Positions 1 through 49,629 of a stretch of DNA of 64,000 bases are shown here, one piece after another. Both the position numbers and the translations under genes were made by a program. Source of the stretch: a virus; IMG/VR virus record IMGVR_UViG_3300027963_000058, positions 1-64,000 of that record; one strand, 5' to 3'. The notes beneath the pieces were generated by a model. The model saw nothing but the letters and a program-made list of their open reading frames with translations. It ran no database searches and was not told where the DNA came from. Every line of letters begins with the position of its first letter. Position 1 is the stretch's first letter.

Positions 1-308
1 GCTTTTGAGTTGCAATAAAATAATATTTCTCTTGTGAAGTTGTCTGCGCCTAAGCGTTCAATGTCTTGGTTGAGTTCGGTGTTGCTTCCATAGTATAGCT
101 GCCAGTCTGATTCTATTTTGCTTCTGATTTTTTTACGTTTTTTGTTGCCGTTTTTTAATTTCACTACTCTGTACGTTGTCTTACTAAATTTTGCTAGTTT
201 CTTACCGATATACTTCCTACCGGTGGTGTTGTTTGTGATCAGGTATACAAACCCCACACAGTCTTCGGGCAGTTGTTCGATTGTTTTGTTTTCGTAAAGC
301 CATACCAT
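1..308 (-). CDS. GIY-YIG (SegE-like) nuclease, C-terminus beyond window
   Basis: The reverse strand reads from an ATG at 308 through 102 codons with no stop before the window edge, so the C-terminus is missing. Near the N-terminus GFVYLI is followed about a dozen residues later by KYIGKK, the two halves of a GIY-YIG nuclease core. A Lys/Arg-rich stretch and a DWQLYYGS segment follow, where the catalytic Arg and neighbouring helix sit in this fold. The arrangement recalls the SegE-type GIY-YIG endonucleases of T4-like phages. These are usually free-standing homing endonucleases, though some may be housekeeping nucleases. The catalytic C-terminal Glu is outside the window or unassigned. It lies 16 bases downstream of the 325-1188 gene and is probably its last co-transcribed partner. 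No strong ribosome-binding site is close to the start. Confidence 0.72.
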   Translation of the reverse strand, partial: MVWLYENKTIEQLPEDCVGFVYLITNNTTGRKYIGKKLAKFSKTTYRVVKLKNGNKKRKKIRSKIESDWQLYYGSNTELNQDIERLGADNFTREILFYCNSK

Positions 309-324
309 GGACTAGTAGTTATCA

Positions 325-1188
325 TCATCCTTGGCCATTTAAAAAATTTACAAAATCTATGTTTGTGTTTATGGTAGACGGGGCATCCTTGCAATAATGA
401 GATATCAAAATTTGGTCTAATGTCGACAGTTTGATAGGGGCATCTAGTACAGTTGTTGCATGTGTGTTGTAGCCAAGTATATCTATGTAGGATTGATGAT
501 TGGTATACTTAAATCTATACAGCGGATCTTGAAGCAATAACCATCGGTCAAACATATCTAGTCCAGCGTCTGTAACCCACCTATCTATAGATGATAAATT
601 TCTATTATAGATATCTCCTAATGAAATATTAATGTCAAAATTATTGTCAATTTTTTTTGGTCTATCAGTAATATGATTGAGAATTTCTTTAAGCATAAAT
701 TCTCCAAACAAGTTCTTTTCTTGAAATTTTTGTGCTATTTTAGAATTTTTATATATTTCCTGAGTTACAGTACATCCAACAGCTGATTTTCTGCACCAGT
801 TTTTAATCACAGCTGGGTATAATTCTAGATCATATGTAATGCCAATAGACACTATATCTAAGGATTTTTTTAAAAAAAACAATTGATCAAGTCTGTGCGT
901 ACCGATAATCCACGATTGACTACTTTCTGCTGCTAACTCTTTTAATTTTAATATGTCAGAGTCGTTCCATGTTCTGCCATACCATCTGTTAGTATTCTTT
1001 GGGGTCCACGTAACAATATTGCTTGGAAATAAGTTCTTTAATCGTGGATCAACGCTCTGCAATGCCCGACCAGTATCTAAAATTGCACCATCGTATTGAT
1101 TTTCAAATTGACCAGATTTTCCTAGTAGTTGTTGAATAATATCGCCGCAACTCCCTGGAATCCAAAACATACAATATAGATCAGACAT
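325..1188 (-). CDS. Uncharacterised 287-aa protein, possible sulfotransferase/P-loop-like fold
   Basis: The function is not recognised. The N-terminus MFWIPGSCGDIIQQLL resembles a strand followed by a glycine-containing phosphate-binding loop. Further on, an IIGTHR segment and a VSIGITYD strand recall the order seen in sulfotransferase-like P-loop proteins, and in the N-terminal domain of the radical SAM fusion at 40387 (FYPGAGGNRY, LTHCVN). No complete Walker A (GxxxxGK[ST]) is present, so nucleotide or PAPS binding is only a suggestion. The start overlaps the end of the upstream gene by eight bases, which implies translational coupling. Base composition is visibly AT-rich compared with gp46 and gp47 in the same transcript, as if acquired separately. 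It is the third of three unknown genes between gp46 and the GIY-YIG gene. Confidence 0.6.
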   Translation of the reverse strand: MSDLYCMFWIPGSCGDIIQQLLGKSGQFENQYDGAILDTGRALQSVDPRLKNLFPSNIVTWTPKNTNRWYGRTWNDSDILKLKELAAESSQSWIIGTHRLDQLFFLKKSLDIVSIGITYDLELYPAVIKNWCRKSAVGCTVTQEIYKNSKIAQKFQEKNLFGEFMLKEILNHITDRPKKIDNNFDINISLGDIYNRNLSSIDRWVTDAGLDMFDRWLLLQDPLYRFKYTNHQSYIDILGYNTHATTVLDAPIKLSTLDQILISHYCKDAPSTINTNIDFVNFLNGQG

Positions 1189-1687
1189 GATAATCCAAAC
1201 TTAAAAATATCTGTCCTATTCCATGAGTGGAATTTTTAATATTAACGTAATGTTTATGGCAAGCAAGTTGTTGTTTTTTAAACAAATTGATTGCCCAATC
1301 ACATAATGAATCCACAGATATATTAAGTCTATCGTATTTTATACACGAAAGACTAAAAGTTACTATTATTCTTCCATTGGGCACAAGATATTTTTTATAA
1401 TCTGCAATCATTGTTATCAACTCATCAATGGTTTTATATTTGAATTCAACATTATTGATTAATAATACTGTGGGCACTGGTGCATAATACTGGGTATGTA
1501 CGTCTAGTATGCCTTGATAAATTTCTCCTAGACATTTATGAGCGAACACAGGTCCTGGCAATGTATTGTTTATTATAAATTTTTCTTCTAGAAGTAATTT
1601 TTTGTTGTTGTTCTTAGAATTGTACCTATATAGATGCCATCTTGGCCCATAATGAGATTTCAATATTCGTACTTGTGCTTTAGTCAT
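1181..1687 (-). CDS. Uncharacterised 168-aa protein, possible degenerate methyltransferase
   Basis: Not recognised with confidence. The central part (LLINNVEF, a helix, then YLVPNGRIIVTFS) has the strand-helix-strand pattern of the second half of a Rossmann-type SAM methyltransferase. There, an acidic strand is followed by 'L.pgG.lv'. The glycine-rich SAM loop (motif I) is not visible, and 168 aa is short for a whole domain, so this may be a reduced or inactive relative. It overlaps both neighbours by eight bases, with start and stop codons sharing ATGACTAA-type junctions, so the three small genes form a tight translational unit. It is AT-rich like its neighbours. Confidence 0.55.
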   Translation of the reverse strand: MTKAQVRILKSHYGPRWHLYRYNSKNNNKKLLLEEKFIINNTLPGPVFAHKCLGEIYQGILDVHTQYYAPVPTVLLINNVEFKYKTIDELITMIADYKKYLVPNGRIIVTFSLSCIKYDRLNISVDSLCDWAINLFKKQQLACHKHYVNIKNSTHGIGQIFLSLDYHV

Positions 1688-2150
1688 TGATTGGCCAAAT
1701 TACTTGAGTAACTGGATATATAAAATTTCCAGACATGCCACAGTCATCGCTTTGATATTGTTGAATTGACGGAGCCCGATTAATGTGAGCAGACCAATGC
1801 TGGATTAATTTTAAATCTAAATCGGGTTGATCAACATATAATTCTTGATTGTATTCGGTGTATACTAAAAATTTATTTATAGCAAGGTGTAAAAATTTTC
1901 TTGCTTTGGGCAAACACTGTTCTAGCATCCAATCTATATGTTGTATTGAAACAAACTCAAGATGGTTAATTATTAAAGAAATCACGTCGTGAGTGCTGTC
2001 AGGAACTACAGAAGTGATAAAACAATCTTGGATTGAATTTTCTCTGCAGAAATTTGTAATTAACTCCTGATGTGGAAGAGTGCCCGGATTCTGTAGTCGC
2101 CATAGGCTCTTGCACGGCACAACTGGAAGATGTCTTACCCAAGTAATCAT
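1680..2150 (-). CDS. Uncharacterised 156-aa protein
   Basis: No family is recognised. The chain has several aromatic and histidine residues (WVRHLP, HLEFVSIQHIDWMLEQ) and a Cys pair near DDCGMSG, but no motif that points to an activity. The start codon overlaps the stop of gp46 as ATGA, so it is probably translated by ribosomes leaving gp46. With the two genes downstream it forms a compact AT-rich trio that looks like a later insertion behind the recombination genes. It is most likely a real gene because overlap and spacing fit the operon. Any function would be a guess. Confidence 0.55.
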   Translation of the reverse strand: MITWVRHLPVVPCKSLWRLQNPGTLPHQELITNFCRENSIQDCFITSVVPDSTHDVISLIINHLEFVSIQHIDWMLEQCLPKARKFLHLAINKFLVYTEYNQELYVDQPDLDLKLIQHWSAHINRAPSIQQYQSDDCGMSGNFIYPVTQVIWPIND

Positions 2151-3910
2151 GCAATATCTACATCCGTGCTGTAGCTAGTGTAGCCTTTTTCTTTTACCAC
2201 ACGCAGGATATTCTCCACACGTCCAGCCAGCTCATCTCTGTGACTCACGAGCCAGATACTCTTGTGGCGCTCGCGACTCATCTGCTTGAGCAAGGCCAGG
2301 CTGCTTTCCACACCTTGTGTATCCAGACCACTATCAATCATTTCATCAATGAACAACACATTGATCGGTTGATATAGACTTTCAAACACATCACGGAAGG
2401 CCCAGCTCATGCTGAGTATCAATCTGTTGCGCTCACCTCGGCTGAGATTGTCAAAGTCCAGCTCACGACCCAGCTCTTCGATTGAAACAGTGAGATCATT
2501 CTGGAACACCACTGTATGTGGCAGGCCAATACGGTCCAGGTAGTAGGTGAGTCTGGCATTGAGATAGCCAAGATTCTGTTCAATGATCTTCTTACGGATA
2601 AAACTGTCCTTGCTGGTCAGTAGCTTGAGCAAGAAGTCTTGATGTTCTTGTAGTCGAGTAAGATCATTTAAGGCGTCGTAGGTCACAGTCTGTAAGGCCT
2701 GTGCGGCCATTTCTTCAATCTGTTCTGAATACGGATCAGCTTCAACTCGCTTGCTGTCTATCTGTTGTTGCAAATTGCTGAGTGTGCTACGATGTTTGAT
2801 AGCATCCTCTTCATGATCGTAGAACATCCGGGGTGGTTTACCTAACACGCCCAGGGAGGTGTGGGCAGTCTCAAGTTCTGATAAGAGCTGTGTATATTCT
2901 TGGCACGCCGCTCTTGCTGAATCCAGATCCGTCTGCTTTGCCGCCAAAACTTGTTGGTGCTTAGTGTCGTGGAAGGCCTGTCCGCACGTGTGACATTCAT
3001 GGTTTTCAAGCGTTTGGATTTCTTTGGATAGTTTGGAAATCGACTTCTCTTCGCGACCAATGTCAAGTTTTGTTCGGCTAATCTGGCCAGCCAGTTCATT
3101 GATGTCCTTGCGTTTTTGGTCCCACGTCTTGTGTTCCTTGTGGGCCGCGATCTCGGAGTCAATGTCAATTTCTTGTAACGCCGCAAGGGCCTTCTCAAGT
3201 TCCTGTATATCTTCTGCATGTTTGGTCGTCCATAAGGTCTGTCTACGCTTCAAGGCCGTGATCTGTTCTTCGATGCGCCCGTTGGCATCCTGCACAGCAC
3301 GGATACGGAATTCTTCTTGTGTGATTGCGTCTTTGGTCTGTCGGTTCAGTTCCTTGATCCTATCCGCACGTTCACTCAGCATGGTGATGCCTAGTAGCTG
3401 TTCGATGATGGTTCTTTGATCATTGGCCTTTAAACTCAAGAACGGTTCAGTGTAGGTATTTAATGCCAAGATATGCTTGAACATGTCGTGACTAAGGCCC
3501 AAGGTCTGTTCTATGGCTTCCTGTGTTTCTCTACTATCACCTTGCGCATTGTCTGTGGCGGCCTGTTCTTGGTTGTTCACAAAGAATCGCAACACATTGG
3601 GTTTACGACCACGTTCGATCCTGTACTGTTGCGAACCCACAACAAAATCCAAACTGACCAGCATGTTCTTGCCATTGGTCTTGTTTACTAGATTGTCTTT
3701 TCTTATGTTGCTGAGTGCTTGTCCGTATAGGCTGTAGCTAAGAGCATTGATGATCGTGGTCTTGCCTGTACCATTTCTAGATCCGTCGCCACCAAGGTCT
3801 AGGTTTTCACCCAGCACCAGGGTCAAGTCGCGTCGATCAAAGTCAATGCCTTGTGTGGCAGCACCCACGCTCATGAAGTTTCGTACTGTGAGATTTTTTA
3901 TTTGTATCAT
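2147..3910 (-). CDS. 46: Recombination endonuclease subunit gp46 (Rad50/SbcC-like ATPase)
   Basis: This is the SMC-like ATPase of the phage Mre11-Rad50-type complex, which resects DNA ends in recombination-dependent replication and host DNA breakdown. Walker A is at residues 43-51 (GSRNGTGKT). A long charged coiled coil of about residues 170-430 is interrupted near residue 305 by a zinc-hook CHTCG (CxxC). The ABC signature is LSRGERNRL, and Walker B is LFIDEMID near the C-terminus, followed by a WLVSHRDE switch-His segment. The length (587 aa) is close to T4 gp46 (560 aa). The partner nuclease gp47 lies upstream but, unusually, a radical SAM gene separates the two. The opposite-strand open frames inside this gene are shadows. 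Confidence 0.95.
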   Translation of the reverse strand: MIQIKNLTVRNFMSVGAATQGIDFDRRDLTLVLGENLDLGGDGSRNGTGKTTIINALSYSLYGQALSNIRKDNLVNKTNGKNMLVSLDFVVGSQQYRIERGRKPNVLRFFVNNQEQAATDNAQGDSRETQEAIEQTLGLSHDMFKHILALNTYTEPFLSLKANDQRTIIEQLLGITMLSERADRIKELNRQTKDAITQEEFRIRAVQDANGRIEEQITALKRRQTLWTTKHAEDIQELEKALAALQEIDIDSEIAAHKEHKTWDQKRKDINELAGQISRTKLDIGREEKSISKLSKEIQTLENHECHTCGQAFHDTKHQQVLAAKQTDLDSARAACQEYTQLLSELETAHTSLGVLGKPPRMFYDHEEDAIKHRSTLSNLQQQIDSKRVEADPYSEQIEEMAAQALQTVTYDALNDLTRLQEHQDFLLKLLTSKDSFIRKKIIEQNLGYLNARLTYYLDRIGLPHTVVFQNDLTVSIEELGRELDFDNLSRGERNRLILSMSWAFRDVFESLYQPINVLFIDEMIDSGLDTQGVESSLALLKQMSRERHKSIWLVSHRDELAGRVENILRVVKEKGYTSYSTDVDIA

Positions 3911-3919
3911 TATTTTTTA

Positions 3920-5215
3920 TTATACACTAAAGTCCTGGTCTAGCCAACCAAATTGAGTTCGCCAGTTGGTTTTTCTTCTTACATCCAACTGGTCAAGATA
4001 AGTTTTTAAATTTTCAATATAGATATTATCTCTAATAGAATTCTTTTGTTTATTGGCAATTCCTTCCATGGCAAGAAACCGTCCTTGTTGAATAGAATTA
4101 TTTTTTGGCATTAGCTGTAATATTTTTTCAAAATCGTTGTCAAATACTCCAGATCCAAATATGTACGGATTATCCTGTTGCCCAGATGTATTAAAACTAT
4201 GAATAATTGGTTCTGATTGCCACCGACCTGCAACCTTTGTTTGTTGAGTATTCCAATGATTGATTTTTTCTAATAAAGTTGGCAGGCCCTTAATCGTCAG
4301 CGCAGATATTGCACTGTTAATACTTAAAGATATCCATGGCCGATCAATACAGTATTCAAAATTTTGTAACCATGTTTCAAGATTTAGTCCATACCGCACA
4401 TATTCTTGTTCGGGTCCCCAACAATCTAAACTAGCAGTTAGTTGTAATTGCCATATTTTATTTCTTAACACCAATCTTTCAAATTGATGTATATATTTTT
4501 TAAATCGTTCATGCGGAATATTGAGATTAGATATAATACTAAATGTTAAATCTGGATTTCCGTGTGTGTTCCAAAAGTCAATACTATCGTCTAGTTCTTT
4601 AAGTAAAAACGGCTCTCCTCCTAGTATATGATAGCGTTGAATCACCTGGTAACGATTATCGGTTGAAAGATAATTCCAAAAATCGTTGACCATACGATCG
4701 TAATTTGAATTAAATTGCGATAAACGAACACTATATTCTGTGGCGTCGTTGCCAAAAGATTCGTCAAATTTTCTATTTTCTTCCTCCCACAAGCTACTGT
4801 GATGAGGTCCGCAGTACACACAGGCCATGTTACAGGTATTTTTAAAATATACCTCGACAATAGTTGGGGTAATTGAAGTTTCTTTTGAATTTGTAAGCAG
4901 TTCGGGTGGCACCAACTTTACATTTTCTTGTTGGTACAAGTTAAACTGCCGATCGCTATACCCACCAGATTCTTCAACACTCTGGCAATATTGACAACCG
5001 TCGGCTGGCCACTGTCCGTTCAACATAACAGTTCTTGCAGCAACCTTATCTGGCAAATTATGAAATTGATCAAAATTATCAGGATCAATTGCAAATTTTT
5101 TTGTTCTATGACAGGATGCTGTAGAACCACTGTTAAAATATATAGTACTCCAGGACCATTTTAATAAACAGGCAGTATCTGTTTGTATAGGAAAAATAGG
5201 ATATTTTGCGGGCAT
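3920..5215 (-). CDS. Radical SAM protein with N-terminal Cys-rich (twitch-like) domain, inserted between gp47 and gp46
   Basis: The radical SAM CX3CX2C motif is CNMACVYC (C128, C132, C135), preceded by the strand VEVYF and followed downstream by a GGEPF SAM-binding motif. The first 110 residues carry C16, C35, C74 and C77 in the pattern 'CxxKW..SCHR..CxYC..E..G.SDRQ'. The radical SAM genes at 40387 and 44429 share this pattern, which suggests an auxiliary Fe-S site ahead of the core, as in N-twitch radical SAM proteins. The substrate is unknown. The start ATG is four bases from the gp47 stop, and the stop is nine bases before gp46, so it sits exactly in the recombination operon. It is markedly AT-richer: the line at 4081 has 16 G/C of 60, against 25 of 60 at 2581 in gp46. 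This supports a recent insertion. Confidence 0.88.
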   Translation of the reverse strand: MPAKYPIFPIQTDTACLLKWSWSTIYFNSGSTASCHRTKKFAIDPDNFDQFHNLPDKVAARTVMLNGQWPADGCQYCQSVEESGGYSDRQFNLYQQENVKLVPPELLTNSKETSITPTIVEVYFKNTCNMACVYCGPHHSSLWEEENRKFDESFGNDATEYSVRLSQFNSNYDRMVNDFWNYLSTDNRYQVIQRYHILGGEPFLLKELDDSIDFWNTHGNPDLTFSIISNLNIPHERFKKYIHQFERLVLRNKIWQLQLTASLDCWGPEQEYVRYGLNLETWLQNFEYCIDRPWISLSINSAISALTIKGLPTLLEKINHWNTQQTKVAGRWQSEPIIHSFNTSGQQDNPYIFGSGVFDNDFEKILQLMPKNNSIQQGRFLAMEGIANKQKNSIRDNIYIENLKTYLDQLDVRRKTNWRTQFGWLDQDFSV

Positions 5216-5219
5216 TGAT

Positions 5220-6236
5220 TTATAAATTCTGATATATTTTTAACAGTAATTTTGGATCGTAGAATTCGCTTTCAATATTGGTCAGCTGATCTGTGACAAT
5301 CTGATCCACGCTTTCAAACTTGATTTCACCGGGTGCCATGTCGGCATCTACCGCTGTGCTCTTGACCGGTATCAAGGCCATCTCTCTTAGATTGTAATCC
5401 TTTACAAATGTGTCCTTGATAAAATTGGCTTCTTCGTAGCTGATGTCAATGTCTAACTCTACACGCACATGCATATTGGCTGCTAATAGTTCAGAGGCAC
5501 TGTCGATCACCCGGCTCAATTTCAAGACACGATACAAGGGTTGACCTGGCCAGCTAAAATACTGATCGGCCTGTCCCCACTCTTTGACCATCATGCCACG
5601 ATTGCTGTCGCCGGCATCAGCAAAGTTGTGTGGAAAACAGTTGCCAATATAGTTCACGTTTCGCTTGCTTTGTCTCAAGTGGAAGTGTCCAGAGTACACA
5701 CTTTCGATTCCACCAAACGCATCCACACGGATCTCGCCGTGGTCGGGCATTTCTACCATGGCATTCATTTTAAAATGTGGTAATTCAAAATGTCCAAACA
5801 TGTACTTGGCCGTCATCTTGGGTATGCGTTTGTGATCATCACCAACCAGCCAAGGAGCAATAATGACATCGTCCTTTTGAAACCAGTCGTTCACAATGAC
5901 TATGTTGGGCAAGTGTTTGGCCCACTCGGCTCCGTGTATGTCTCGCTTGTCGCGATAGTATAGATCGTGATTGCCCGGAATAAAATAAAACTGATCAAAG
6001 GCCGCTGATAGTTTTTCCAGGGCCTGCAGGCTAAACTGCAAGGTCTGCAGGTTGATTGATGCACGATGATTGTGCCAATCGCCCAGGAACATACCGGTTT
6101 CGCAACCTTGCGCTTTGGCAGTGGCAATAAACCAATCAACAAATGCTTCACAATCTCTATTGTGGACCAGGCTGTTGCTTTTTAGTCCCCAATGTATGTC
6201 AGTACAGATAGCTGCTTTACGAAATAGATTTGTCAT
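5220..6236 (-). CDS. 47: Recombination endonuclease subunit gp47 (Mre11/SbcD-like)
   Basis: This is the metallophosphoesterase nuclease that works with the gp46 ATPase in DNA end processing. The metal-binding motifs appear in order: CTDIHWG (D13, H15), LGDWH (residues 51-55), PGNHD (87-91), then FGHFE and SGHFHLR, which supply the later histidines. The length of 338 aa matches T4 gp47 (339 aa). It begins 12 bases after the gp55 stop, inside one minus-strand operon led by the late sigma factor gene. Its downstream neighbour is the inserted radical SAM gene instead of gp46. Assignment is firm from the motif series plus the nearby Rad50-like partner. Confidence 0.95.
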   Translation of the reverse strand: MTNLFRKAAICTDIHWGLKSNSLVHNRDCEAFVDWFIATAKAQGCETGMFLGDWHNHRASINLQTLQFSLQALEKLSAAFDQFYFIPGNHDLYYRDKRDIHGAEWAKHLPNIVIVNDWFQKDDVIIAPWLVGDDHKRIPKMTAKYMFGHFELPHFKMNAMVEMPDHGEIRVDAFGGIESVYSGHFHLRQSKRNVNYIGNCFPHNFADAGDSNRGMMVKEWGQADQYFSWPGQPLYRVLKLSRVIDSASELLAANMHVRVELDIDISYEEANFIKDTFVKDYNLREMALIPVKSTAVDADMAPGEIKFESVDQIVTDQLTNIESEFYDPKLLLKIYQNL

Positions 6237-6248
6237 CTAGCTAGTATA

Positions 6249-7148
6249 CTACTCCTCGTTGGATATTACGACCTCTCCGGCAACATGATCTGGGTTACGT
6301 CGTCCAGCATTTTGTCTAGTCCAGCTAGGATTGAGCCCGTTCATTTCTAGTATGTCATCACGTATGTTTTGATTTTTCTTTTCCAGATTCAAGATCCTAG
6401 TAAAGCTATTGGTGATAGCGGCAGTATAATATGCAAAAGGGTTCTGCGATTTTGATTCGTCAAACTGCAGGCCAATTTGGCTAAGCTGTAGTAGGGCTTG
6501 TCCCCGCATTTCTTCATTGTAGGTGTATCCTCTCCAGTTGCTTCGTGTGGCATAGCGTTCGCACAGCTTCATGAACATGGTAGCCAGCTTACGAGTCATT
6601 TTACCATGATCCTTGCTGAACTCACCGTATTCTAGATCGCCCTTCCAGTGGCTCTTGCCCACCAAGAACGGTTCTTTGTTATCGTCCAATCGGTAGTGAT
6701 AAAACGGAGGAAAGTTCAATCTCACATGAACTGGACTTAGTATAGGTTCTTCGATCAGTTCAGCTAACGGATCTTCGGGTTCGAGCTCCAGCTCAAATAT
6801 CTCGTCGATCTTTTTCTTTTTGGTAGCACTTTTAGGTATCTTTTTGGGTGCCATGGGTATGTGTTCCCAACAAGTGATGCGGAACACTAGATCTGTATTA
6901 GGTATCCGTACAGGGTCCACCACTTGCCCAGTTTCTCGCTTGACACGGTCAGCCCTGTTGCGTCTGGCTTCGGCCACTGTGCGTTGATTTATTTTTAACA
7001 CAGTGGGCAGGATAATGTCATACTGATGATCCAGAACCGGATCACGATAGGCGCAATAGCTGTTTTTACTTAGATGTATTTCTTTCAAGATATCTCTGTT
7101 GTTGAGATAGTTGACTTTTGCTGGGGTTTTTGGTATGGTTGTGGCCAC
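6249..7148 (-). CDS. 55: gp55-like sigma factor for late transcription, N-terminally extended
   Basis: The C-terminal third contains WRGYTYNEEMRGQALL, then FDESKSQNPFAYYTAAI and a basic helix LEKKNQNIRDD. This is the sigma-2-like core of T4 gp55, which directs host RNA polymerase to TATAAATA late promoters with the sliding clamp. The protein is 299 aa, against 185 aa for T4 gp55. The extra N-terminal ~190 residues include a Lys-rich then Glu-rich stretch (KKKKIDEIFELELEPEDP) of unknown role. The start is taken as GTG at 7148 because AAGGAG lies eight bases upstream. It is the first gene of the minus-strand operon and is divergent from the virion block it should control. ATAAATA motifs upstream of 7262, 16582 and 34680 fit this role. 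Confidence 0.82.
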   Translation of the reverse strand: MATTIPKTPAKVNYLNNRDILKEIHLSKNSYCAYRDPVLDHQYDIILPTVLKINQRTVAEARRNRADRVKRETGQVVDPVRIPNTDLVFRITCWEHIPMAPKKIPKSATKKKKIDEIFELELEPEDPLAELIEEPILSPVHVRLNFPPFYHYRLDDNKEPFLVGKSHWKGDLEYGEFSKDHGKMTRKLATMFMKLCERYATRSNWRGYTYNEEMRGQALLQLSQIGLQFDESKSQNPFAYYTAAITNSFTRILNLEKKNQNIRDDILEMNGLNPSWTRQNAGRRNPDHVAGEVVISNEE

Positions 7149-37092: not shown

Positions 37093-37121
37093 TAGACTTC
37101 CAACGTATTTTGTAGTATAAT
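37093..37121 (+). promoter_or_regulatory. Sigma-70-like promoter opening the accessory island
   Basis: TAGACT (37093-37098) and a perfect TATAAT (37116-37121) are separated by 17 bases, six bases before the ATG at 37128. The late ATAAATA core is absent. This suggests early/middle transcription of the following genes by host-type polymerase, and a very short leader. Confidence 0.55.
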
Positions 37122-37127
37122 ACAATT

Positions 37128-40352: not shown

Positions 40353-40381
40353 TTGATTTAACAAGACAAATACTGTATAAT
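40353..40381 (+). promoter_or_regulatory. Sigma-70-like promoter for the radical SAM cluster
   Basis: TTGATT (40353-40358), 17 bases, then TATAAT (40376-40381), with the ATG at 40387. This is the second sigma-70-like promoter in the island and starts the run of radical SAM genes. Like the one at 37093 it leaves a very short leader. Confidence 0.6.
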
Positions 40382-40386
40382 AAACT

Positions 40387-42324
40387 ATGATTATTGCTTT
40401 TTATCCTGGTGCCGGTGGCAACCGCTACCATCACTATTGTCAAGGCCAACGCACATTTGATAGCAACGTCACTTATGATCATTTATTAAAAAATCAAGAT
40501 TTTAAATATCGTTATTTAGACCACAGTTCTATTGGACTTGCTGACCAAGAATTGATATTGACGCATTGTGTCAATGTTCCTTTGCTTAAAACACTTTTTC
40601 CAAATCAAACAGAAATTGTTGTCATACAAGCAGACCTTGTGCAAAGTTTACGTAGAGAATGGTATCTAGCAGACCAGCATCGAGACAAAAACATGCCCGA
40701 CAAACTTGAACATGCTAAAGCACATTGGTCATACCATAAAAAATATTATACAGAATATCCAATGGATATCACCGGATCCACAGTCGTGGTTGATCTTGCC
40801 GATGATAGTGATTTTTCTAAAATCATGCAAGGCGAACTTGACAGTATCCAATCATCAGAATACGATCAAGCAGTCGCAGAATTCATGCCACATGATTTAT
40901 CAAATATAGCGGGCGATAAGATCGTGGAAGGATTTAAAAGTAAATTTCTTGACGATGCCGAAACAATGAAACAACGCTTGGACAAGGTAAGTCCAAGCAT
41001 GTGTCTAGCCAAGTGGAAACAAGTGAGTTTGCACCTGGCTACTGGTCTCAATAACTCATGCTATCATCCGCCGTTGCATACGATACAATTAGAAGATATA
41101 CAGCGTAGTCCCAGTGGATTACATAATACAGCATATAAAAAAGAACAACGTAAACTAATGCTCGATGGCAAACGTCCCAGTGAATGTAGCTACTGCTGGA
41201 CCATGGAAGATGCCGGTAAACTGAGTGATAGACATTATCGTTCAGGTGAGTCTTGGGCTGCTCGAGACTTTGGAAAAATTGTTAGTGGAGAATGGAACGA
41301 TGATGTCATACCTAGCTATGTTGAAGTCAATTTTAATCATGCTTGTAATCTGGCATGTAGCTACTGTAGTCCTCAATTTAGTTCAACTTGGCAACAAGAA
41401 ATGGATCAGCATGGCGCTTACCCTACTAGCACTAGACACAATGATCCTAGTCACTTTGTTGGTCGCAACAGGCCTATTCCAGTTCGCGACCACAATCCTT
41501 ACGTAGAAGCATTTTGGGCTTGGTGGCCCACACTATATCCTGAACTTGAACACTTCCGTATGACCGGTGGAGAACCTTTACTAGATAAAAATACCTATAG
41601 AGTGTTTGACTATGTGCTGGCCAATCCCAAACCCAACCTGCATTTAAATGTGACTAGCAACTTTAGCGTAGATGAAAAGTTGTGGCAAAAATACAAAGGC
41701 TATGTGAAACAGTTGTGTGAAGGTGAACAGATCGAACACTTCATGCAGTACATAAGTTTGGACTCATGGGGCACCCAAGCTGAATACATCAGACACGGAC
41801 TGGACTTCGATCTCTTATGGGATCGAGTAAATCAATTCCTAACTGAAATACCCTATCGCAACAGCGTGACATTTATTGTGACCATGAACAATCTTTCAGT
41901 GACTGGACTCAGCAGTTTGATGTCTGGCATCTTGGGCCTCAGACAGCTTTACAGCACAACTTACCAGCGTGTGTGGTTTGATACTCCAGTTCTAAGACAG
42001 CCACATTGGCAAAGTCTACAACTGTTGCCCGAAAGCTATTGTGATCAACTGGAACAGTTGTGGGCCTGGATGTTGACTCAAGCAGAAACTCCTGACACAA
42101 GATTCCATGGATTTAAAGATTATGAACTGTCCAGACTGGATCGAGACATTGCCTGGATGCGAGCTGGACAACAGCTAGATCCTGTGTATATACAACAGAA
42201 CAAGGCAGACTTTTATAGATTCTTCACGGAAGCTGATCGTAGACACGGCACCAACTTCTTGAAGACCTTTCCGGAAATGCGTGCATGGTGGTCAGAATGC
42301 GAGTATCATGCTCGGCAATCGTAA
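40387..42324 (+). CDS. Fusion: P-loop-like N-terminal domain + N-twitch radical SAM (645 aa)
   Basis: Residues 1-200 form an extra domain beginning IIAFYPGAGGNRYHHY, with later LILTHCVN and FPNQTEIVVIQADLV. These resemble a phosphate-binding or sulfotransferase-like fold, though no full Walker A is seen. From about 205 the protein is a radical SAM enzyme. The Cys-rich segment has C206 (MCLAKW), C225 (SCYHP), C267/C270 (CSYCW) and EDAGKLSDRHY. The core CNLACSYC is C320, C324, C327, followed by RMTGGEPLLD. The C-terminus ends RRHGTNFLKTFPEMRAWW, as in the 44429 product. The substrate is unknown. It opens the main radical SAM cluster under its own promoter. Confidence 0.85.
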   Translation: MIIAFYPGAGGNRYHHYCQGQRTFDSNVTYDHLLKNQDFKYRYLDHSSIGLADQELILTHCVNVPLLKTLFPNQTEIVVIQADLVQSLRREWYLADQHRDKNMPDKLEHAKAHWSYHKKYYTEYPMDITGSTVVVDLADDSDFSKIMQGELDSIQSSEYDQAVAEFMPHDLSNIAGDKIVEGFKSKFLDDAETMKQRLDKVSPSMCLAKWKQVSLHLATGLNNSCYHPPLHTIQLEDIQRSPSGLHNTAYKKEQRKLMLDGKRPSECSYCWTMEDAGKLSDRHYRSGESWAARDFGKIVSGEWNDDVIPSYVEVNFNHACNLACSYCSPQFSSTWQQEMDQHGAYPTSTRHNDPSHFVGRNRPIPVRDHNPYVEAFWAWWPTLYPELEHFRMTGGEPLLDKNTYRVFDYVLANPKPNLHLNVTSNFSVDEKLWQKYKGYVKQLCEGEQIEHFMQYISLDSWGTQAEYIRHGLDFDLLWDRVNQFLTEIPYRNSVTFIVTMNNLSVTGLSSLMSGILGLRQLYSTTYQRVWFDTPVLRQPHWQSLQLLPESYCDQLEQLWAWMLTQAETPDTRFHGFKDYELSRLDRDIAWMRAGQQLDPVYIQQNKADFYRFFTEADRRHGTNFLKTFPEMRAWWSECEYHARQS

Positions 42325-43360
42325 ACTTATTGTAGATGAATTTTGTGAAGTAAAAGAATTTACGCAAAATTTCCAAGATGGATATTTTTGGAATTTTGCC
42401 GAACACGAAATTTGTGCAGGGGCAGTATATATTATCAGTCGTCAGCAGTTTGCTGAGAACATTGTAAAAATAAAACAGCTGGCCCAAGATCAAATCATAC
42501 TACCGGTGCTGGGTAATCCTGCCGAAGGCTCTGACACCATGTTCAAACAAGCACAGGCTTTGGGAATTTTAGAACTAGTTCAACAAGGAAAAATTATTAT
42601 TATTTCCGGAGGTGATCTACCCGAACACATTCCGCATCTGTTCTATGAAAACTTTTTACCCAAGATCCTGGATTACGATGAAAATTTACAAGCCATTGCA
42701 CAGTACAAAAAAAGTTGGAGTACTGATAGACCCTATAAATTTTTATTTTTAAATGGTCGAGGGCGAGATCATCGTAGACAATTATTGGCTAGACTACACC
42801 CTTTACTTGATGTAGCAATCTGGAGCAACTTGGATTCGGCAGCTGGGCCAATCAAGCTACTGGATCCAGAGCACGAGTTTGAGTTTTATCGGCACAATCT
42901 CGATATTGATCCGTCGGGTTTTGTAAAATATTCATTGTTCGATAACAATTGGGGAGAAATATATCTCAATGCACAACCATATACAGACAGTTATTTCAGT
43001 CTAGTGACAGAAACTGTATTCGATTATCCGTACAGTTTCAGGACAGAAAAAATCTGGAAGCCGATTGCAATTGGACATCCGTTTGTTGTGGCCAGTAATG
43101 CTGGCTACTATCGTGACTTACACAACTTGGGATTTAAAACTTTTGGGGATCTGATTGACGAAAGTTTTGATCTAGAAATGGACAATGTTAAAAGAATGGC
43201 AAAACTCATACACCAAATAGAATGGTTATGTCAACAAGATCTTGCTAAATTTGTACAAGAGTCGTATAATGTATGTAAATACAATCAATCACTGCTTGCC
43301 GAACTTGGACCCAAGATCCGTGCAGAATTTCCCCAGAAGCTCCTAAACTTTATAAAATGA
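42308..43360 (+). CDS. TEK-family protein, possible glycosyltransferase (350 aa)
   Basis: The start is likely ATG 42308, inside the end of the fusion gene; a GTG at 42281 is the alternative. After FLFLNGRGRDHRRQLLARL, where a GT-B second domain might begin, comes YFSLVTETVFDYPYSFRTEK, then IWKPIAIGHPFVVASNAGYY, and GFKTFGDLIDESFDLE. The block 'TEKxxKPI..G.PFv.....l..LGF.TF...iDESfD' recurs in four other genes of the island (43357, 48610, 54873, 56053). The TEK element resembles the donor-site motif of alpha-1,3-fucosyltransferase-like GT10 enzymes, so a sugar transferase is a reasonable guess. Stop and next start overlap as ATGA. Confidence 0.6.
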   Translation: MLGNRKLIVDEFCEVKEFTQNFQDGYFWNFAEHEICAGAVYIISRQQFAENIVKIKQLAQDQIILPVLGNPAEGSDTMFKQAQALGILELVQQGKIIIISGGDLPEHIPHLFYENFLPKILDYDENLQAIAQYKKSWSTDRPYKFLFLNGRGRDHRRQLLARLHPLLDVAIWSNLDSAAGPIKLLDPEHEFEFYRHNLDIDPSGFVKYSLFDNNWGEIYLNAQPYTDSYFSLVTETVFDYPYSFRTEKIWKPIAIGHPFVVASNAGYYRDLHNLGFKTFGDLIDESFDLEMDNVKRMAKLIHQIEWLCQQDLAKFVQESYNVCKYNQSLLAELGPKIRAEFPQKLLNFIK

Positions 43361-44436
43361 TCACTACAATATCTAAAACTTTTCCAGATCATTGGATTTA
43401 TGGCAAGTATGAACAAGAAATTCTTGCCGGCATACAACGTCAGATTGATGCACGATTCCCTGATCAAAACAATCTGTTGTTCAACACCACTTGGCGAGAA
43501 AATCCTGAACATGATGTGGAACTACAGCAGTGTCTTGCTGATGCTGTGCCTGTTGACAATTTGTTTGTGGTATCCACTGTGGATTATTTTTTACCACATC
43601 ACGAGCAAATGGTACTGGACATGATTGAGCGCCTGTCAGTAAAGCACACCTACTTCCTGGGCAACTTTGATACTCCTAGTCCTAGATGGGCTCCTGACAA
43701 TAGCACGACAATTTATTTTAATTTTTTTGCCATCGTGTGTAGAGATAAGTTTGAAAAATATCAGCAGGATGAATTAATTTTGACCGACCCAAAGTATCTG
43801 TTTATCAGTTACAATCGCAAACCATATGCACATCGTTTGGCATTTGTAAAAAAATTAATTGAACACAACGTAAAAGATCTTGGAGTGGTCACTCTAGGTC
43901 GGGCATTTCCTGGTAACACTGGACCTGACAAAGATCTTTATTTTAGCATTGGTGAAAAGAATCAAGACTACGTGAAATATGGACACTGGTACAGTGACAG
44001 TCCCGAAGCCACGTCTCACGATATTCCACATGACTTGTTTAGCCTACACAACATGCACTATTGGAAACATCATTTTTTACACATAGTGGGCGGAACCAGT
44101 CAGTCAAGATGGAATCAATTCCTTACACAGATTGATTTCAAACCCATCATTGGAATGCGGCCGTTCCTGATCAATGGACAAACACAAAATTACGAATTCT
44201 GGCGACGCAATGGATTCCGTACATTCAATCATTATTTTCCAGGATTGGATTTTGAAAAATCTGACACCGTGCATGCAACCCTAATAGATGCAATACGACA
44301 ACTTTCTGCGATGAGTTCTAGTGAGTTATTGGCCATGTACAACATGATGTTGCCGGACTTGATACACAACAGACAACGCTGGTATGCCTGGGCCAATGAA
44401 CAAAAAAATCAAGTGGAGAATTTGTTTGATGAATGA
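43357..44436 (+). CDS. TEK-family protein with altered core (359 aa)
   Basis: YLFISYNRKPYAHRLAFVKK, then GVVTLGRAF, matches the second-domain opening of the family. The later block reads TQIDFKPIIGMRPFLINGQ, then WRRNGFRTFNHYFPGLDFE. The hallmark TEK is replaced by TQI and the DESYD element by GLDF, while FKPI, PF and GFRTF are kept. If TEK supplies a catalytic or donor-binding Glu/Lys, this member may be inactive or have a different donor. An early segment VVSTVDYFLPHHEQMVLDMI may be the first domain. It starts within the upstream stop and ends by overlapping the next radical SAM start. Function is inferred only from the family. Confidence 0.55.
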   Translation: MITTISKTFPDHWIYGKYEQEILAGIQRQIDARFPDQNNLLFNTTWRENPEHDVELQQCLADAVPVDNLFVVSTVDYFLPHHEQMVLDMIERLSVKHTYFLGNFDTPSPRWAPDNSTTIYFNFFAIVCRDKFEKYQQDELILTDPKYLFISYNRKPYAHRLAFVKKLIEHNVKDLGVVTLGRAFPGNTGPDKDLYFSIGEKNQDYVKYGHWYSDSPEATSHDIPHDLFSLHNMHYWKHHFLHIVGGTSQSRWNQFLTQIDFKPIIGMRPFLINGQTQNYEFWRRNGFRTFNHYFPGLDFEKSDTVHATLIDAIRQLSAMSSSELLAMYNMMLPDLIHNRQRWYAWANEQKNQVENLFDE

Positions 44437-45763
44437 TTTAGAATTCCGCCAGCAAGTATTGGACACCAAAAGTTCCAGCTTTTGTGCAGCCAAATGGTAC
44501 AATGCTACCATATGGTTAGGATCAGGACAGACTACCAGTTGCCATCATCCATTGCCACATGCTGTTGATCCAGAAGAGCTTGAACACAATCCCAGTGCGC
44601 TACACAACACGCAACGCAAGAAAATGGAACGTGAGCAGATGCAAAAAGGCGAACGTCCCAGCGGCTGTGAGTATTGTTGGAAAATAGAAGACATTGGTCG
44701 AGATAACATCAGTGACCGTGTGTACAAGAGTCGAATTTACCCCTTAGAGGATTTATCATATGCATACCGAACACCACCAGAAACAGACATTAACCTACGC
44801 ACCCTGGAAATCTCGTTTGACCGTACTTGCCAATTGGCTTGTAGCTATTGTAACCCTGCTTTCAGTAGCACATGGGTTAGGGACATACGACAAAGCGGCC
44901 CCTATACCAATCTGGTGTCTGATGGGCGCAATCACTTTACTCATATTCATGCTAGTAGTCAACCGTTCCGCCGTGGTGAAACAAATCCGTATGTGGAAGC
45001 ATTCTTCAAGTGGTGGGAAACAGACCTACACCAAAGCCTCCAAGAGCTAAGGATCACTGGCGGTGAGCCCTTGATGAGCGGCGACACCTGGAAACTACTA
45101 GATTGGTTCAAGAACAACAAAGGGCGCAGCCGGACACGACTGGCTATCAACAGCAATTTAAGCATGGCCTATGACATAGTTGATCGTGCCATCACAGCAT
45201 GCGAAGGCACTGAACTGGATATCTATACCAGCATGGAAAGCGTAGGCTCACAAGCTGAATACATCCGAGACGGCCTGGACTATGACCGCTGGTGTTACAA
45301 CATGACACAGATCATGGATGCCAAGCAGGTGCGTGGGCTACATGTGATGTGTACTATCAACGCACTTTGTTTAGAAAGCCTTCCTGAATTGCTTACTCAA
45401 CTCATGTCATGGAAAAGCCTTGCCGGTGCGGACTTTCCAAGTTTTACATTAAATATCTTGCGTTTCCCCAGCTTTCAAAGTGCTTTGGTATTGCCTGACG
45501 AGATTAGAACACATCATCAACAACGCCTACAAACTTGGTTAAACACGTGGGATCGTAATATCCATTTACACGAGCATGAACGTAATCATGTGCAGCGTTT
45601 AATCGATTACCTAGACGTAGTTAAAACTCCACACAGTGAAGCATTTGATCGTGTGAGTTTGTTAAATGATTTCAAACAATTTTATACACAGTATGATCAA
45701 CGTCGTGGGCAAGATTTTGCAAAAACATTTCCTAACTTGGCAGATTGGTACAACACATTATGA
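44429..45763 (+). CDS. N-twitch radical SAM protein (444 aa)
   Basis: ATG 44429 is preferred because GTGGAG lies about ten bases upstream and the frame begins MNDLEFRQQVLD; an upstream ATG at 44384 would add 15 residues overlapping the previous gene. The N-terminal Cys-rich module has C19 (FCAAKW), C38 (SCHHP), C80/C83 (CEYCW) and NISDRVYK. The core CQLACSYC is C134, C138, C141, after LEISFDRT, with RITGGEPLMS downstream. The C-terminus ends RRGQDFAKTFPNLADWY. It closely parallels the second domain of the 40387 protein and the 3920 gene, forming one subclass ('CxxKW' type). Substrate unknown; an Fe-S dependent radical modification is expected. Confidence 0.88.
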   Translation: MNDLEFRQQVLDTKSSSFCAAKWYNATIWLGSGQTTSCHHPLPHAVDPEELEHNPSALHNTQRKKMEREQMQKGERPSGCEYCWKIEDIGRDNISDRVYKSRIYPLEDLSYAYRTPPETDINLRTLEISFDRTCQLACSYCNPAFSSTWVRDIRQSGPYTNLVSDGRNHFTHIHASSQPFRRGETNPYVEAFFKWWETDLHQSLQELRITGGEPLMSGDTWKLLDWFKNNKGRSRTRLAINSNLSMAYDIVDRAITACEGTELDIYTSMESVGSQAEYIRDGLDYDRWCYNMTQIMDAKQVRGLHVMCTINALCLESLPELLTQLMSWKSLAGADFPSFTLNILRFPSFQSALVLPDEIRTHHQQRLQTWLNTWDRNIHLHEHERNHVQRLIDYLDVVKTPHSEAFDRVSLLNDFKQFYTQYDQRRGQDFAKTFPNLADWYNTL

Positions 45764-47412
45764 CCTTAGATGAAAAAGTAGCAGAGTACAAAACAAAATA
45801 CACAGTACTAGCTGTTATCGACCTGGATCACTGGCATGATTTAAAAATATATCAGCAAGATCCGTGGTTGCGTGATACATTGACATCATTGCATCAAGAA
45901 GTTTATACAAATGATCAACGCATTTTATTAACCTTGTCAAGATGTAACAACGCAGAAATACTGTTAGAACGACTACAACATTGGTTATACAACGTAGATA
46001 TTTCTAGTTTTTTTATTGCAATACTATCAAACGATCCTGATATTGCTCAATTATGGAAATCTGGTCCAGACATGTCCGGTATAACTTTTGATTTTTTCCA
46101 AAGTGAAAAGTATATCGATGATAAAGATCAAGCTACGTCGAGTTATAATAATAGCGAGTTGGTAAACCCAATAGATCTTGACGGTCGAGAACAATTTTTA
46201 TTAAAGGAATCAAAAACATTTTGTATGTATCCGTGGATACATCTTCATACTTATCCTACTGGTGAAGCATATCCGTGTTGCCAGGCAGAAATGAAAGTGG
46301 GTTCAATTGGAAACAGCCGTATCAATACACTCAGTGAAATATGGAATAGTCCTAAGCAAAGACAACTACGACAGGATATGTTAAGCGAAACATTTAATCC
46401 AACTTGTGGAAGATGTTATGAACAAGAAGATAGCGGATTTTTTAGCGGAAGACGAAGCGCAAATAAACATCATGGTCACCACATTAAAAAAGTCAAAGAC
46501 ACTCAAGCAGATGGCACTGTACAAGACTTTAAAATGACCTATTGGGACATACGCTTCAGTAACTTGTGTAATTTAAGTTGCCGTAGTTGTGGACATATCT
46601 TTAGCAGCAGTTGGTACCAGGATCAGGTTAAATTGGCTGGAGGAGATTGGAAGGATCGTAATCAAGTGTTGAACTATGCCGGACGTACAGAAACAGACAT
46701 GTGGGAACAGTTGATACCACATTTGGATTATGTAGAGCAGATTTACTTTGCCGGTGGCGAGCCCTTGATGATGAAGGAACACTATAATATTTTGGATGAG
46801 CTAGAACGCAGAGGACGTTTTGATGTACGGTTAATCTACAATACAAACTTTACACATATCAAACTAAAAGACCGTACAGTCTTTGATTACTGGAAACGAT
46901 TTAAATCAGTAGCAGTTGGAGCAAGTCTAGACGCTATGGGCCCACGTGCTGAATATATAAGAAAAGGCACAGACTGGTCTGTAGTAGAATCAAATCGTAA
47001 ACAAATGCTGGAAGTATGCCCAGAAGTTGATTTCTATATCAGTCCTACACTCAGCATTATGAATGCGTTACATTTACCAGACTTCCATCAAGAATGGGTT
47101 GATCAAGGCTTGTTAAAACCGCAAGATCTCAACATAAATATCTTACAAGATCCGTTTCATCTCAGGATTGATCTGGCCCCAAAAAATTACAAGGATCGTA
47201 TACACGCTCGATTTCAAGAACATCTAGAATGGTTACGTCCTTTAGATCCATTGCAAAGAGCCACTGTGGGTTTTGAGAGTGCTATTAATTTTATGTCAGC
47301 TGCTGACAACACACATTTGCTAGATACATTCTGGCGCAAAACACATGAACTTGACAACATCAGAAATGAAAATATATTGACAACTATCCCTGAATTGAAG
47401 GCATTACTATGA
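45760..47412 (+). CDS. N-twitch radical SAM protein with extra N-terminal domain (550 aa)
   Basis: The start is ATG 45760, overlapping the upstream stop as ATGA. Residues 1-145 form an extra AT-rich domain (TVLAVIDLDHWHDLKI, FFIAILSNDPDIAQLW) of unknown role. Next is the Cys-rich module C155 (FCMYPWIHLHTYPTGE), C173-C174 (PCC), C216 and C219 (CGRCYEQEDSG). The radical SAM core CNLSCRSC is C270, C274, C277, preceded by YWDIRFSNL, with YFAGGEPLMM later. It belongs to the 'CxxPW...PCC' subclass with the 47409 and 49622 genes. The RRSANKHHGHHIKK stretch is unusually basic and histidine-rich. Substrate unknown. Confidence 0.87.
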   Translation: MTLDEKVAEYKTKYTVLAVIDLDHWHDLKIYQQDPWLRDTLTSLHQEVYTNDQRILLTLSRCNNAEILLERLQHWLYNVDISSFFIAILSNDPDIAQLWKSGPDMSGITFDFFQSEKYIDDKDQATSSYNNSELVNPIDLDGREQFLLKESKTFCMYPWIHLHTYPTGEAYPCCQAEMKVGSIGNSRINTLSEIWNSPKQRQLRQDMLSETFNPTCGRCYEQEDSGFFSGRRSANKHHGHHIKKVKDTQADGTVQDFKMTYWDIRFSNLCNLSCRSCGHIFSSSWYQDQVKLAGGDWKDRNQVLNYAGRTETDMWEQLIPHLDYVEQIYFAGGEPLMMKEHYNILDELERRGRFDVRLIYNTNFTHIKLKDRTVFDYWKRFKSVAVGASLDAMGPRAEYIRKGTDWSVVESNRKQMLEVCPEVDFYISPTLSIMNALHLPDFHQEWVDQGLLKPQDLNINILQDPFHLRIDLAPKNYKDRIHARFQEHLEWLRPLDPLQRATVGFESAINFMSAADNTHLLDTFWRKTHELDNIRNENILTTIPELKALL

Positions 47413-48617
47413 ACATTCCACATGATCAATTTTGTGTGTTGCCCTGGGTCAGTTTGGAAACCAGCCCAATTGGCACAGTGAGGCCATGCTGTCTGGCTGA
47501 AGAAGAAATTGTTGATGACGCAGGTAACAAGTTTGATCTCAACACAGCAAACTTTAGCAACATACAAACCAGCCAGTACATGCAGGATCTAAGACAACAG
47601 TTTTTAGACCAAAAGAAACCAGCCGCTTGCAGAAAATGCTGGCGAGAAGAATCAGCCGGTCGTACTAGCAAACGTATGCATACTTTGGACAGACTCAAGC
47701 ACATGATTACCGATTCTGAATGGACTGCGGATGCCAAACCCTTGATGTTTTTGGATCTAAAACTAGGCAACATCTGCAATCTCAAATGTCGTATATGTGG
47801 CTCATGGAGTTCTAGTACCTTTGCCACCGAAGAACTAGCCGATCTGCCACCAGGAGAAGATCGCAAAAGTAATCATCACTACCATATGCTCAAGCAAGGA
47901 GCGTGGCCTAGAGAGAATCCCACGTTCTGGACTGAAATTGATCAGGTAGCGGATCAAATACAGTACATAGAATTTACCGGTGGTGAGCCATTCATGATCA
48001 AGGAACACTTTGATCTGTTACAAGGTCTAGTCGATCGAGGTCTAGCCGGGCAGATTGAAATACATTATAACACCAATGGCACGCAATGGCCCGAACACGC
48101 AGAGGCAATCTGGAAACATTTTAAAACTGTGGAAATAGCATTCAGTATTGATGATGTGGGCGATAGATTTGAATATCAAAGATCAAATGCTGTATGGTCA
48201 GAAGTATGCGATAACATTGAACGTTTTAGACAAATGCGCAATCGTAATCCACGCATCAGATTACAAGTATGCACCACAGTAAATGTGTTCAATGTTTACT
48301 ACATAGAACAAGTGGCCAATTGGATCAACACACAAAGTTTTGATTTTGTGTACTGGAACATGATGCACGAAGCCTACTACTTTAGCATCAGCACTTTGCC
48401 CGAATCAGCCAAACAGTCAATTGCAACAAAATTACAATCTGCACAAGTTGATGCACGAACACAACATGAGTTTGCACAAATCATAGACTTCATGATGCGT
48501 GGTGTCAGCCTAGATGGCAACATATTGCGTATGCGTGTAGCAGATCTTGATCGCAAACGCAATCAAAATTTAACACAGGTGCAACCTGAACTGGCTGCCT
48601 TGATCGACTATGCGTAA
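47409..48617 (+). CDS. N-twitch radical SAM protein (402 aa)
   Basis: The Cys-rich N-terminus is C9 (FCVLPWVSLETSPIG), C27-C28 (PCC), C74 and C77 (CRKCWREESAG). The core CNLKCRIC is C123, C127, C130, preceded by FLDLKLGNI, with YIEFTGGEPFMIKEHFDLLQ downstream. The protein ends DLDRKRNQNLTQVQPELAAL, a variant of the C-terminal tail shared by the set. It starts as ATGA inside the upstream stop and overlaps the next gene by eight bases. It is the most compact of the 'PW..PCC' type members, so it may show the minimal functional domain set. The reaction is not inferable. Confidence 0.88.
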   Translation: MNIPHDQFCVLPWVSLETSPIGTVRPCCLAEEEIVDDAGNKFDLNTANFSNIQTSQYMQDLRQQFLDQKKPAACRKCWREESAGRTSKRMHTLDRLKHMITDSEWTADAKPLMFLDLKLGNICNLKCRICGSWSSSTFATEELADLPPGEDRKSNHHYHMLKQGAWPRENPTFWTEIDQVADQIQYIEFTGGEPFMIKEHFDLLQGLVDRGLAGQIEIHYNTNGTQWPEHAEAIWKHFKTVEIAFSIDDVGDRFEYQRSNAVWSEVCDNIERFRQMRNRNPRIRLQVCTTVNVFNVYYIEQVANWINTQSFDFVYWNMMHEAYYFSISTLPESAKQSIATKLQSAQVDARTQHEFAQIIDFMMRGVSLDGNILRMRVADLDRKRNQNLTQVQPELAALIDYA

Positions 48618-49629
48618 ACTGGTTTACATGTGGCTTCCTGGTCAAGCACCTGAATGGTTCCGTGACGCATTGCCAGAAAATTACCCAATAGAAATTTATG
48701 ATCCAGCGAAAGAGTACGATCTAGACACCGTTTTTTATTATGACCTGTACGGATACTATCGCGAAAATATCAAGACTTATCTAGAGCGTGGACACCGAGT
48801 GATTCTTGACGCAAAAAATGAACATTATATTCAATATCGTTTTCATTGGATATTTTTATTGTTCTTGCAATACCCAGGACAAGGCATGATTTTGATCAGT
48901 GGCGATCGTGCCAAACAGATCCCTGGACTCCAGATACAAGCCACTCCGTATTGGTACTGGATCATGGACCAACCTAGATTACAAGCAATAGGATTAGATC
49001 AGTATCACCCTGTTCCTACGCAAGAGAAAAAATTCTTCATGAGCCTGGGCAAGACTCGAATAGCTCGTGATTATCTGTACGACAGGCTTGGAGATCTCTT
49101 ACAAGACAGCGTACACAGTTATTTGGGTCGCGGTAGGTACTTACCAAATGACCGAAAACAAGACGAGGTTATAGGAATAGGTTTTGATCGGTATGTAAAC
49201 ACCGACTGGTTAGATGCAACTTGTTTTACCTTGGCTGTTGAAACTTATGTAGATGATTCTGATCTATCTGGATTTAGCCTGACTGAAAATGATGGTTTTT
49301 TCTTGTGCGAAAAAACCTATAAGCCATTGGCTTGCAAGCATCCTTTGTTGATGGTTAGCACCCAGGGAAATTTATCACATCTACGCAATCAAGGGTTTGA
49401 ATCATATCCTGAGCTATGGGACGAAAGTTATGATGATATTCCAGATTGGCAAACAAGAATAGATCGCATAATACAGATAGTGCATGACTTTGATCCGCGT
49501 ACTCTTGATAATCCTGTGATTCAAGAAAAGCTATTGTATAATAGCGTAAGATTTTTTGATAAAGATTTAACAACACATTTATTAAATAGCACCGTAATCA
49601 ATCCGTTACTGGAGTTTGTTAATGCTTGA
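48610..49629 (+). CDS. TEK-family protein, possible glycosyltransferase (339 aa)
   Basis: The N-terminus MRKLVYMWLPGQAPEWFRDA, then TVFYYDLYGYYREN, looks like a first Rossmann-type domain. KFFMSLGKTRIARDYLYDRL opens the second. The signature is FFLCEKTYKPLACKHPLLMV, then NQGFESYPELWDESYDD. So CEK replaces TEK, while KPL, HP and DESYD are kept. It lies between two radical SAM genes and overlaps both, which ties the family to the radical SAM enzymes by operon structure. A sugar-transfer function is inferred from weak GT10-like resemblance; other nucleotide-binding roles are not excluded. Confidence 0.6.
   Translation: MRKLVYMWLPGQAPEWFRDALPENYPIEIYDPAKEYDLDTVFYYDLYGYYRENIKTYLERGHRVILDAKNEHYIQYRFHWIFLLFLQYPGQGMILISGDRAKQIPGLQIQATPYWYWIMDQPRLQAIGLDQYHPVPTQEKKFFMSLGKTRIARDYLYDRLGDLLQDSVHSYLGRGRYLPNDRKQDEVIGIGFDRYVNTDWLDATCFTLAVETYVDDSDLSGFSLTENDGFFLCEKTYKPLACKHPLLMVSTQGNLSHLRNQGFESYPELWDESYDDIPDWQTRIDRIIQIVHDFDPRTLDNPVIQEKLLYNSVRFFDKDLTTHLLNSTVINPLLEFVNA

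Follow-up and report, generated by a model that had tools for sequence, protein, structure and literature searches.

A radical SAM gene as cargo in a variable slot between gp47 and gp46 of a T4-type phage

Introduction

What is a radical SAM gene doing between gp47 and gp46, the genes of two partner subunits? The question is raised by a window of 64,000 nt, the first 64 kb of the 91-kb virus record IMGVR_UViG_3300027963_000058, in which the minus strand reads in order through a gene for a gp55-like late sigma factor (6249..7148; phrog_12791, 5e-75), gp47 (SbcD-like, 5220..6236; phrog_100, 3e-50), the radical SAM gene (3920..5215), gp46 (SbcC-like, 2147..3910; phrog_77, 2.6e-98), three small cargo genes, and the start of a GIY-YIG nuclease gene. 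The radical SAM gene is an intact ORF of 431 aa that lies, as originally predicted, behind a 4-nt spacer after gp47 (5216-5219) and a 9-nt spacer before gp46 (3911-3919), and it is AT-rich, with a GC content of ~0.35 against 0.46 in the flanks. The original prediction saw in this arrangement either mobility of the gene family within phage genomes or a link to DNA-end processing.

An insertion by comparison with near relatives

DNA identity between the window and its relatives L010 and L012 is 88-92%, stops at the gp47 stop codon (window position 5222), and resumes at the gp46 start (3910-3916). Between these points, L012 is empty, its gp47 and gp46 overlapping in an ATGA, and L010 carries three different genes. 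Among relatives whose gp47 is 93-98% identical, the joint takes four states, being empty, occupied by the radical SAM gene, occupied by the three genes of L010, or occupied by a methyltransferase gene (L013). Relative to these near relatives the radical SAM gene is an insertion, and the empty gp46-gp47 junctions that were sought as support for an insertion are present in close relatives such as L012. An assembly artefact is excluded, since the arrangement recurs identically in L009, a second record of the same or a nearly identical phage, and orthologues occupy the same joint in the divergent phages L090-L094, L096, L116, L117, L121, L152, and L160.

The premise that gp47 and gp46 are normally adjacent holds only in part. 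Of nine annotated phages besides T4, three (Cassandra, 2.275.O, and XbC2) have no ORF between these genes, and six do, these being KVP40, Lw1, a cyanophage, Pelagibacter phage HTVC008M (where the ORF encodes a 2OG-Fe(II) oxygenase), Atu_ph07, and Phosso; T4 itself has 46.2 and 46.1 in this position.

Contents of the joint across related phages

A first count found 83 loci with both flanks, 55 of them carrying 0.14-3.9 kb in the gp47/gp46 joint (two only 144 nt). In the dereplicated set of 85 loci, where less than 200 nt counted as empty, 31 slots are empty and 54 filled (0.7-3.9 kb), although these counts overstate independence because many of the relatives are metagenomic contigs and related to one another. 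The filled slots hold the radical SAM lineage of the window (10), other N_Twi radical SAMs (14), GT-B-like genes (11), or something else (19), and the other cargo seen includes a methyltransferase, a sulfotransferase, a SPASM radical SAM, an AMP-binding enzyme, SDRs, a TctC-like protein, and a GIY-YIG nuclease. This set includes loci recruited through the radical SAM itself; among the 66 loci recruited by gp46 alone, 24 are empty and 42 filled, 15 of these with an N_Twi radical SAM. Every cargo ORF (85/85) is in sense.

Control joints between upstream structural genes contained inserts in 0/45, 0/39, and 0/31 cases (Fisher p 5e-27 for the gp47/gp46 slot against these joints). The neighbouring joints of the operon are also variable, gp55/gp47, which is empty in the window, being filled in 17 of 65 loci and gp46/GIY-YIG in 61 of 78. 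In the window, this third slot holds three small cargo genes (1680-2150, 1181-1687, and 325-1188, together 325..2150, minus strand), which are replaced in other phages and absent in L010, where the gap from gp46 to the GIY-YIG gene is ~30 nt. The GIY-YIG gene (about 1..308, minus strand) is the core flank of the third slot; it runs off the window and is complete in L009 (11603-12031, 142 aa).

A gp47 tree of 71 rows requires a minimum of 29 changes in the state of the gp47/gp46 slot, and 6 changes in whether this radical SAM lineage is present. The gp47/gp46 joint serves as a cargo slot: some phages have nothing in it, and others have enzyme genes of different kinds.

The radical SAM enzyme

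The protein encoded at 3920..5215 (minus strand) scores 196 bits against NF033640, the twitch domain-containing radical SAM family (N_Twi_rSAM), for which the curated cut-off is 170. Its radical SAM motif, CNMACVYC (residues 128-135; 4811..4834, minus strand), was placed from the sequence and the orthologue alignment, and the CxxxCxxC cysteines C128, C132, and C135 are invariant across 18 orthologues. Likewise invariant in these orthologues are C16, C35, C74, and C77 in the N-terminal, twitch-like part, a conservation that suggests a second Fe-S cluster at the N-terminus. The enzyme thus has the motif and N-terminal cysteines of the NF033640 subfamily, but it represents a divergent lineage near the cut-off that is found almost only in viral contigs. 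Because the 25 aligned rows of the clade tied to this locus keep the frame, the gene is very likely functional. The genes at 40387 and 44384 had been assigned to the same subclass, and both do belong to NF033640 (307 and 302 bits), but they are just 26-28% identical to the slot protein; the start previously given for the second, 44429, is internal.

An AF2 model of the slot protein (pLDDT 87) comes nearest to BlsE, viperin, SkfB, EpeE, and AprD4, with weak matches (target-normalised TM 0.27-0.48, identity 9-17%) that amount to a likeness of fold, not family membership, with sugar- and nucleotide-acting and RiPP radical SAM enzymes. Viperin is among the best of these fold matches, and nonetheless the protein is not a member of the viperin family NF038283, against which it scores 25 bits (cut-off 180). 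Solved structures included no credible relative by sequence, and a tblastn search for relatives in annotated phages gave no match. The most plausible guess is a sugar- or nucleotide-modifying role, and the enzyme may perhaps act on a sugar, a nucleotide, or another small group in a phage-encoded modification pathway rather than on DNA ends.

A cellular origin of the gene was also considered and rejected, with only 4 matches in 84,980 species genomes, the best of them on an 8-kb contig.

Proposed exchange through conserved flanks and its alternatives

We consider the gp47/gp46 joint to be, probably, an exchange slot within a core-gene operon, its occupant here being one N_Twi radical SAM. Co-infecting phages would recombine through the conserved flanks gp55, gp47, gp46, and the GIY-YIG gene, and the cassette lying between them could be swapped, gained, or lost with the core genes undamaged, a mechanism that we infer from the observed pattern of slot states. 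Since all slot genes are in sense, the cassette would be transcribed as part of the operon. The slot of L059 (3955-7861) holds two cassettes with a fused fragment between them, in open frame, in which gp46 codons 1-42 are joined to gp47 codons 207-338. With an identity of only ~77% to the gp47 of L059 itself, this fragment is not just a duplication made in assembly; it resembles the scar that recombination between two occupied slots would leave.

A transposon-like, self-mobile element would also account for the precise insertion of AT-rich cargo. Pairing left and right slot ends from one locus, however, gave no higher similarity than shuffled pairings across loci, so there is no target-site duplication beyond composition; no terminal inverted repeats span the radical SAM gene, there is no transposase, and the joint and orientation are always the same. 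These observations already contradict such an element, which we regard as extremely improbable, and the missing duplications, repeats, and transposase point to recombination through the flanks. The suggested mobility of the family stands insofar as the empty sites, the many unrelated cargoes, and the repeated changes of state favour it, but there is no sign of self-mobility. It is possible, though in our view rather doubtful, that movement is driven by intronless or collaborative homing. In that case, alleles that are empty or foreign would be cleaved close to the slot by a GIY-YIG or HNH endonuclease, and the neighbouring cassette would be copied in during repair. The variant is possible because the GIY-YIG gene adjoins gp46 on its 3' side in 78/78 loci long enough to show it. 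A nuclease gene also lies within the slot of L043 (GIY-YIG) and of L017 (HNH-like, by eye), T4 has mobB in gp55/gp47, and Lw1 has mobE beside gp46; nucleases of the seg/mob type have target sites at distances of hundreds to thousands of bases (PMC2988022). Most cassettes, however, are without a nuclease, the best PHROG of the GIY-YIG gene is labelled NAD synthetase and is not a homing family (homing endonuclease families come next), and a gene that is universal at these loci marks no difference between donor and recipient.

The history of the lineage bears on two further explanations. In the radical SAM phylogeny, the closest orthologues, 25 in number, group together (support 99/94) and belong to the gp46 locus. 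All of them lie within ~4 kb of gp46 where it is visible (three members are fragments or contigs without gp46), and the clade occupies three positions, gp47/gp46, gp55/gp47, and convergent 3' of gp46, for which five position changes suffice. That the closest orthologues have kept the locus over large divergence is not required of a purely random exchange site and counts against exchange. If the radical SAM worked with the gp46/47 nuclease in DNA-end processing or repair, it might be kept beside it for that reason, and the tight clade would be in keeping with some such linkage. Against this, close relatives with the same gp46/47 have no such gene, or have unrelated enzymes in its place. Glycosyltransferases, methyltransferases, SDRs, homing-type nucleases, and other cargoes share the slot, and where a record contains both gp46 and an orthologue from outside the clade, 37-95 kb separate the two; in these records, the gp47/gp46 joint is filled too, judging by gap size. 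With such mixed cargoes and distant orthologues, the specific role in DNA-end processing that had been suggested is not supported, and we find a nuclease partner quite improbable. Alternatively, the radical SAM could be an old operon gene, ancestral in the joint and repeatedly lost with little exchange, and it does co-diverge with gp46/gp47 in a sister group (L090-L094, L096, L121, and others). In the window's own group, on the other hand, it is sporadic (window, L091, and L152), the window and L091 are not supported as sisters on the radical SAM tree, and unrelated cassettes occupy the same joint at 87-98% gp46 identity, all of which makes an ancestral gene improbable. The lineage is long resident at the locus, yet not every phage has it, and it is found on both sides of gp47.

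Expression of gp46 behind a cassette

In empty slots, gp46 is coupled to gp47 by the ATGA overlap. A cassette would keep gp46 expressed by either of two arrangements, with the last cargo gene overlapping the gp46 start or with a TATAAT box placed 5-10 nt before it. In the window, the 3' end of the cassette carries such a box 8 nt ahead of the gp46 ATG (3919..3924, minus strand), together with a sigma70-like partner, TTGGCT (3942..3947, minus strand), at a spacing of 17 nt. An exact TATAAT is found in the 30 nt before gp46 in 22 of the 54 filled slots, and in 21 it lies 5-10 nt from the ATG. By comparison with these 22, 1000 trials with random positions in the same inserts averaged 0.8 and never exceeded 5; when the 30-nt stretches themselves were shuffled by a first-order Markov model, the average was 4.3 and the highest count 11. 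The box is present in 18 of the 28 cassettes with a gap before gp46 versus 3 of the 26 whose last gene overlaps gp46 (p 8e-5, a value weakened, like the other probabilities for this box, by the kinship of the loci). The distribution makes the box a candidate promoter, possibly leaderless, that would restart gp46, bearing in mind that TATAAT is only six bases. Together with the overlap as its alternative, it makes a concrete prediction about how a gene can be inserted between two partner subunits and be tolerated.

Elsewhere in the window, a similar box, GTATAATA, lies at 37115-37122 and at 40375-40382 (plus strand). The ATGs that follow after 5-6 nt belong to the genes at 37128 and 40387, and the gene at 40387 is the first of the main radical SAM cluster. 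The sequence GTATAATA is over-represented in the window, with 9 occurrences against 2.8 expected.

Relation to known systems

Variable gaps between core genes are a known kind of locus, as the precedents in T4 and other annotated phages indicate. In T4, 46.1/46.2 lie in gp47/gp46, and a-gt, mobB, and others lie in gp55/gp47, so that the same two gaps are used, with genes in sense and 4-nt overlaps, and the cargo there likewise includes a glycosyltransferase (a-gt) and a homing endonuclease (mobB). A T4-type variable gap is marked by alleles that are empty or differently filled between the same two core genes, and the 31 empty and 54 filled slots are of this kind. The T4 gp47/gp46 cargo, however, is two small ORFs, whereas the cassettes here are large, encode enzymes, vary among near-identical phages, and in many cases terminate in TATAAT. 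The free-standing seg/mob homing endonucleases of T4-like phages, which spread by intronless homing, also reside in core-gene gaps and move via flanking homology (PMC2988022); unlike those systems, most cassettes here encode metabolic enzymes and no nuclease. As in the record studied here, many radical SAM genes occur in the T4-like marine contig TARA_ERS488813_N000010, for which 12 are reported (PMC5332604), and in the part of that account covered here, the gp47/gp46 slot is not described. No published account of the gp47/gp46 joint as a hotspot was found in the open-access literature, a scope that leaves aside most subscription journals. What is new here is that enzyme cassettes occur on this scale, that they recur in one and the same joint, and that many end in TATAAT. 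One odd gene thereby leads to a testable rule on where accessory genes are kept in large T4-type phages and how an essential operon stays unbroken in the process.

A shared repertoire in the main cargo cluster

The families found in the slot recur at 40-57 kb of the window, with five N_Twi radical SAMs, five members of a Pfam-less family, and one amidinotransferase-like gene. By HMM assignment of families, the main cargo cluster (40387..51989, plus strand) has the same repertoire as the slot. It contains NF033640-type N_Twi radical SAMs starting at 40387, 44384, 45745, 47409, and 49616 and members of the Pfam-less family at 42281-43360, 43357-44436, and 48610-49629 (all plus strand); two more of the latter lie at 54873-56069 and 56053-57150 (minus strand), beside the amidinotransferase-like gene (53857-54876, minus strand). 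The five-copy family is without Pfam or PHROG matches, and its model (pLDDT 77) best resembles trehalose-6-phosphate synthase, glycogen synthase, and fucosyltransferase at a TM of at most 0.43, weak matches from which we tentatively predict GT-B-like glycosyltransferases. Several long radical SAMs share a domain of ~120 N-terminal residues with this GT-B-like family, where it is also N-terminal, and with a free-standing ORF of 122 aa before the radical SAM gene in L090-L094. The slot radical SAM would be drawn from a repertoire in common with the main cluster, comprising GT-B-like transferases, radical SAMs, and a possible amidinotransferase. Exchange of a little-studied radical SAM subfamily alongside glycosyltransferase-like genes narrows the search for its function.

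On a bolder reading, which we think unlikely as a whole, the three joints of the gp55-gp47-gp46-GIY-YIG operon would be evolved docking sites, at which cassettes bring translational coupling or their own leaderless promoter and, with the main cluster, supply a novel and variable radical SAM/glycosyltransferase modification pathway. If this were true, the pathway might target, for example, virion glycans, the host surface, or phage nucleotides.

The 91-kb record carries 9 radical SAM genes. Most larger relatives (L094, L091, L021, and others) have 13-16 N_Twi matches per phage, not all of them above the cut-off and some with internal stops, and the N_Twi family constitutes a large expansion of one enzyme family in the larger phage records. 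Examples of the shared N-terminal domain are found in L053:3460-5046 (residues 1-130), at the N-terminus of the window's 45745-47412 product, and in L090:5631-5999. The family of the gene at 53857-54876, which is also found in the slots of L047, L060, and L063, shows GH-DG and HC-T motifs that appear by eye to be those of a guanidino-modifying (amidinotransferase)-like enzyme, and it has no Pfam match. In L055, L072, and L084, two separate ORFs make up the GT-B-like protein.
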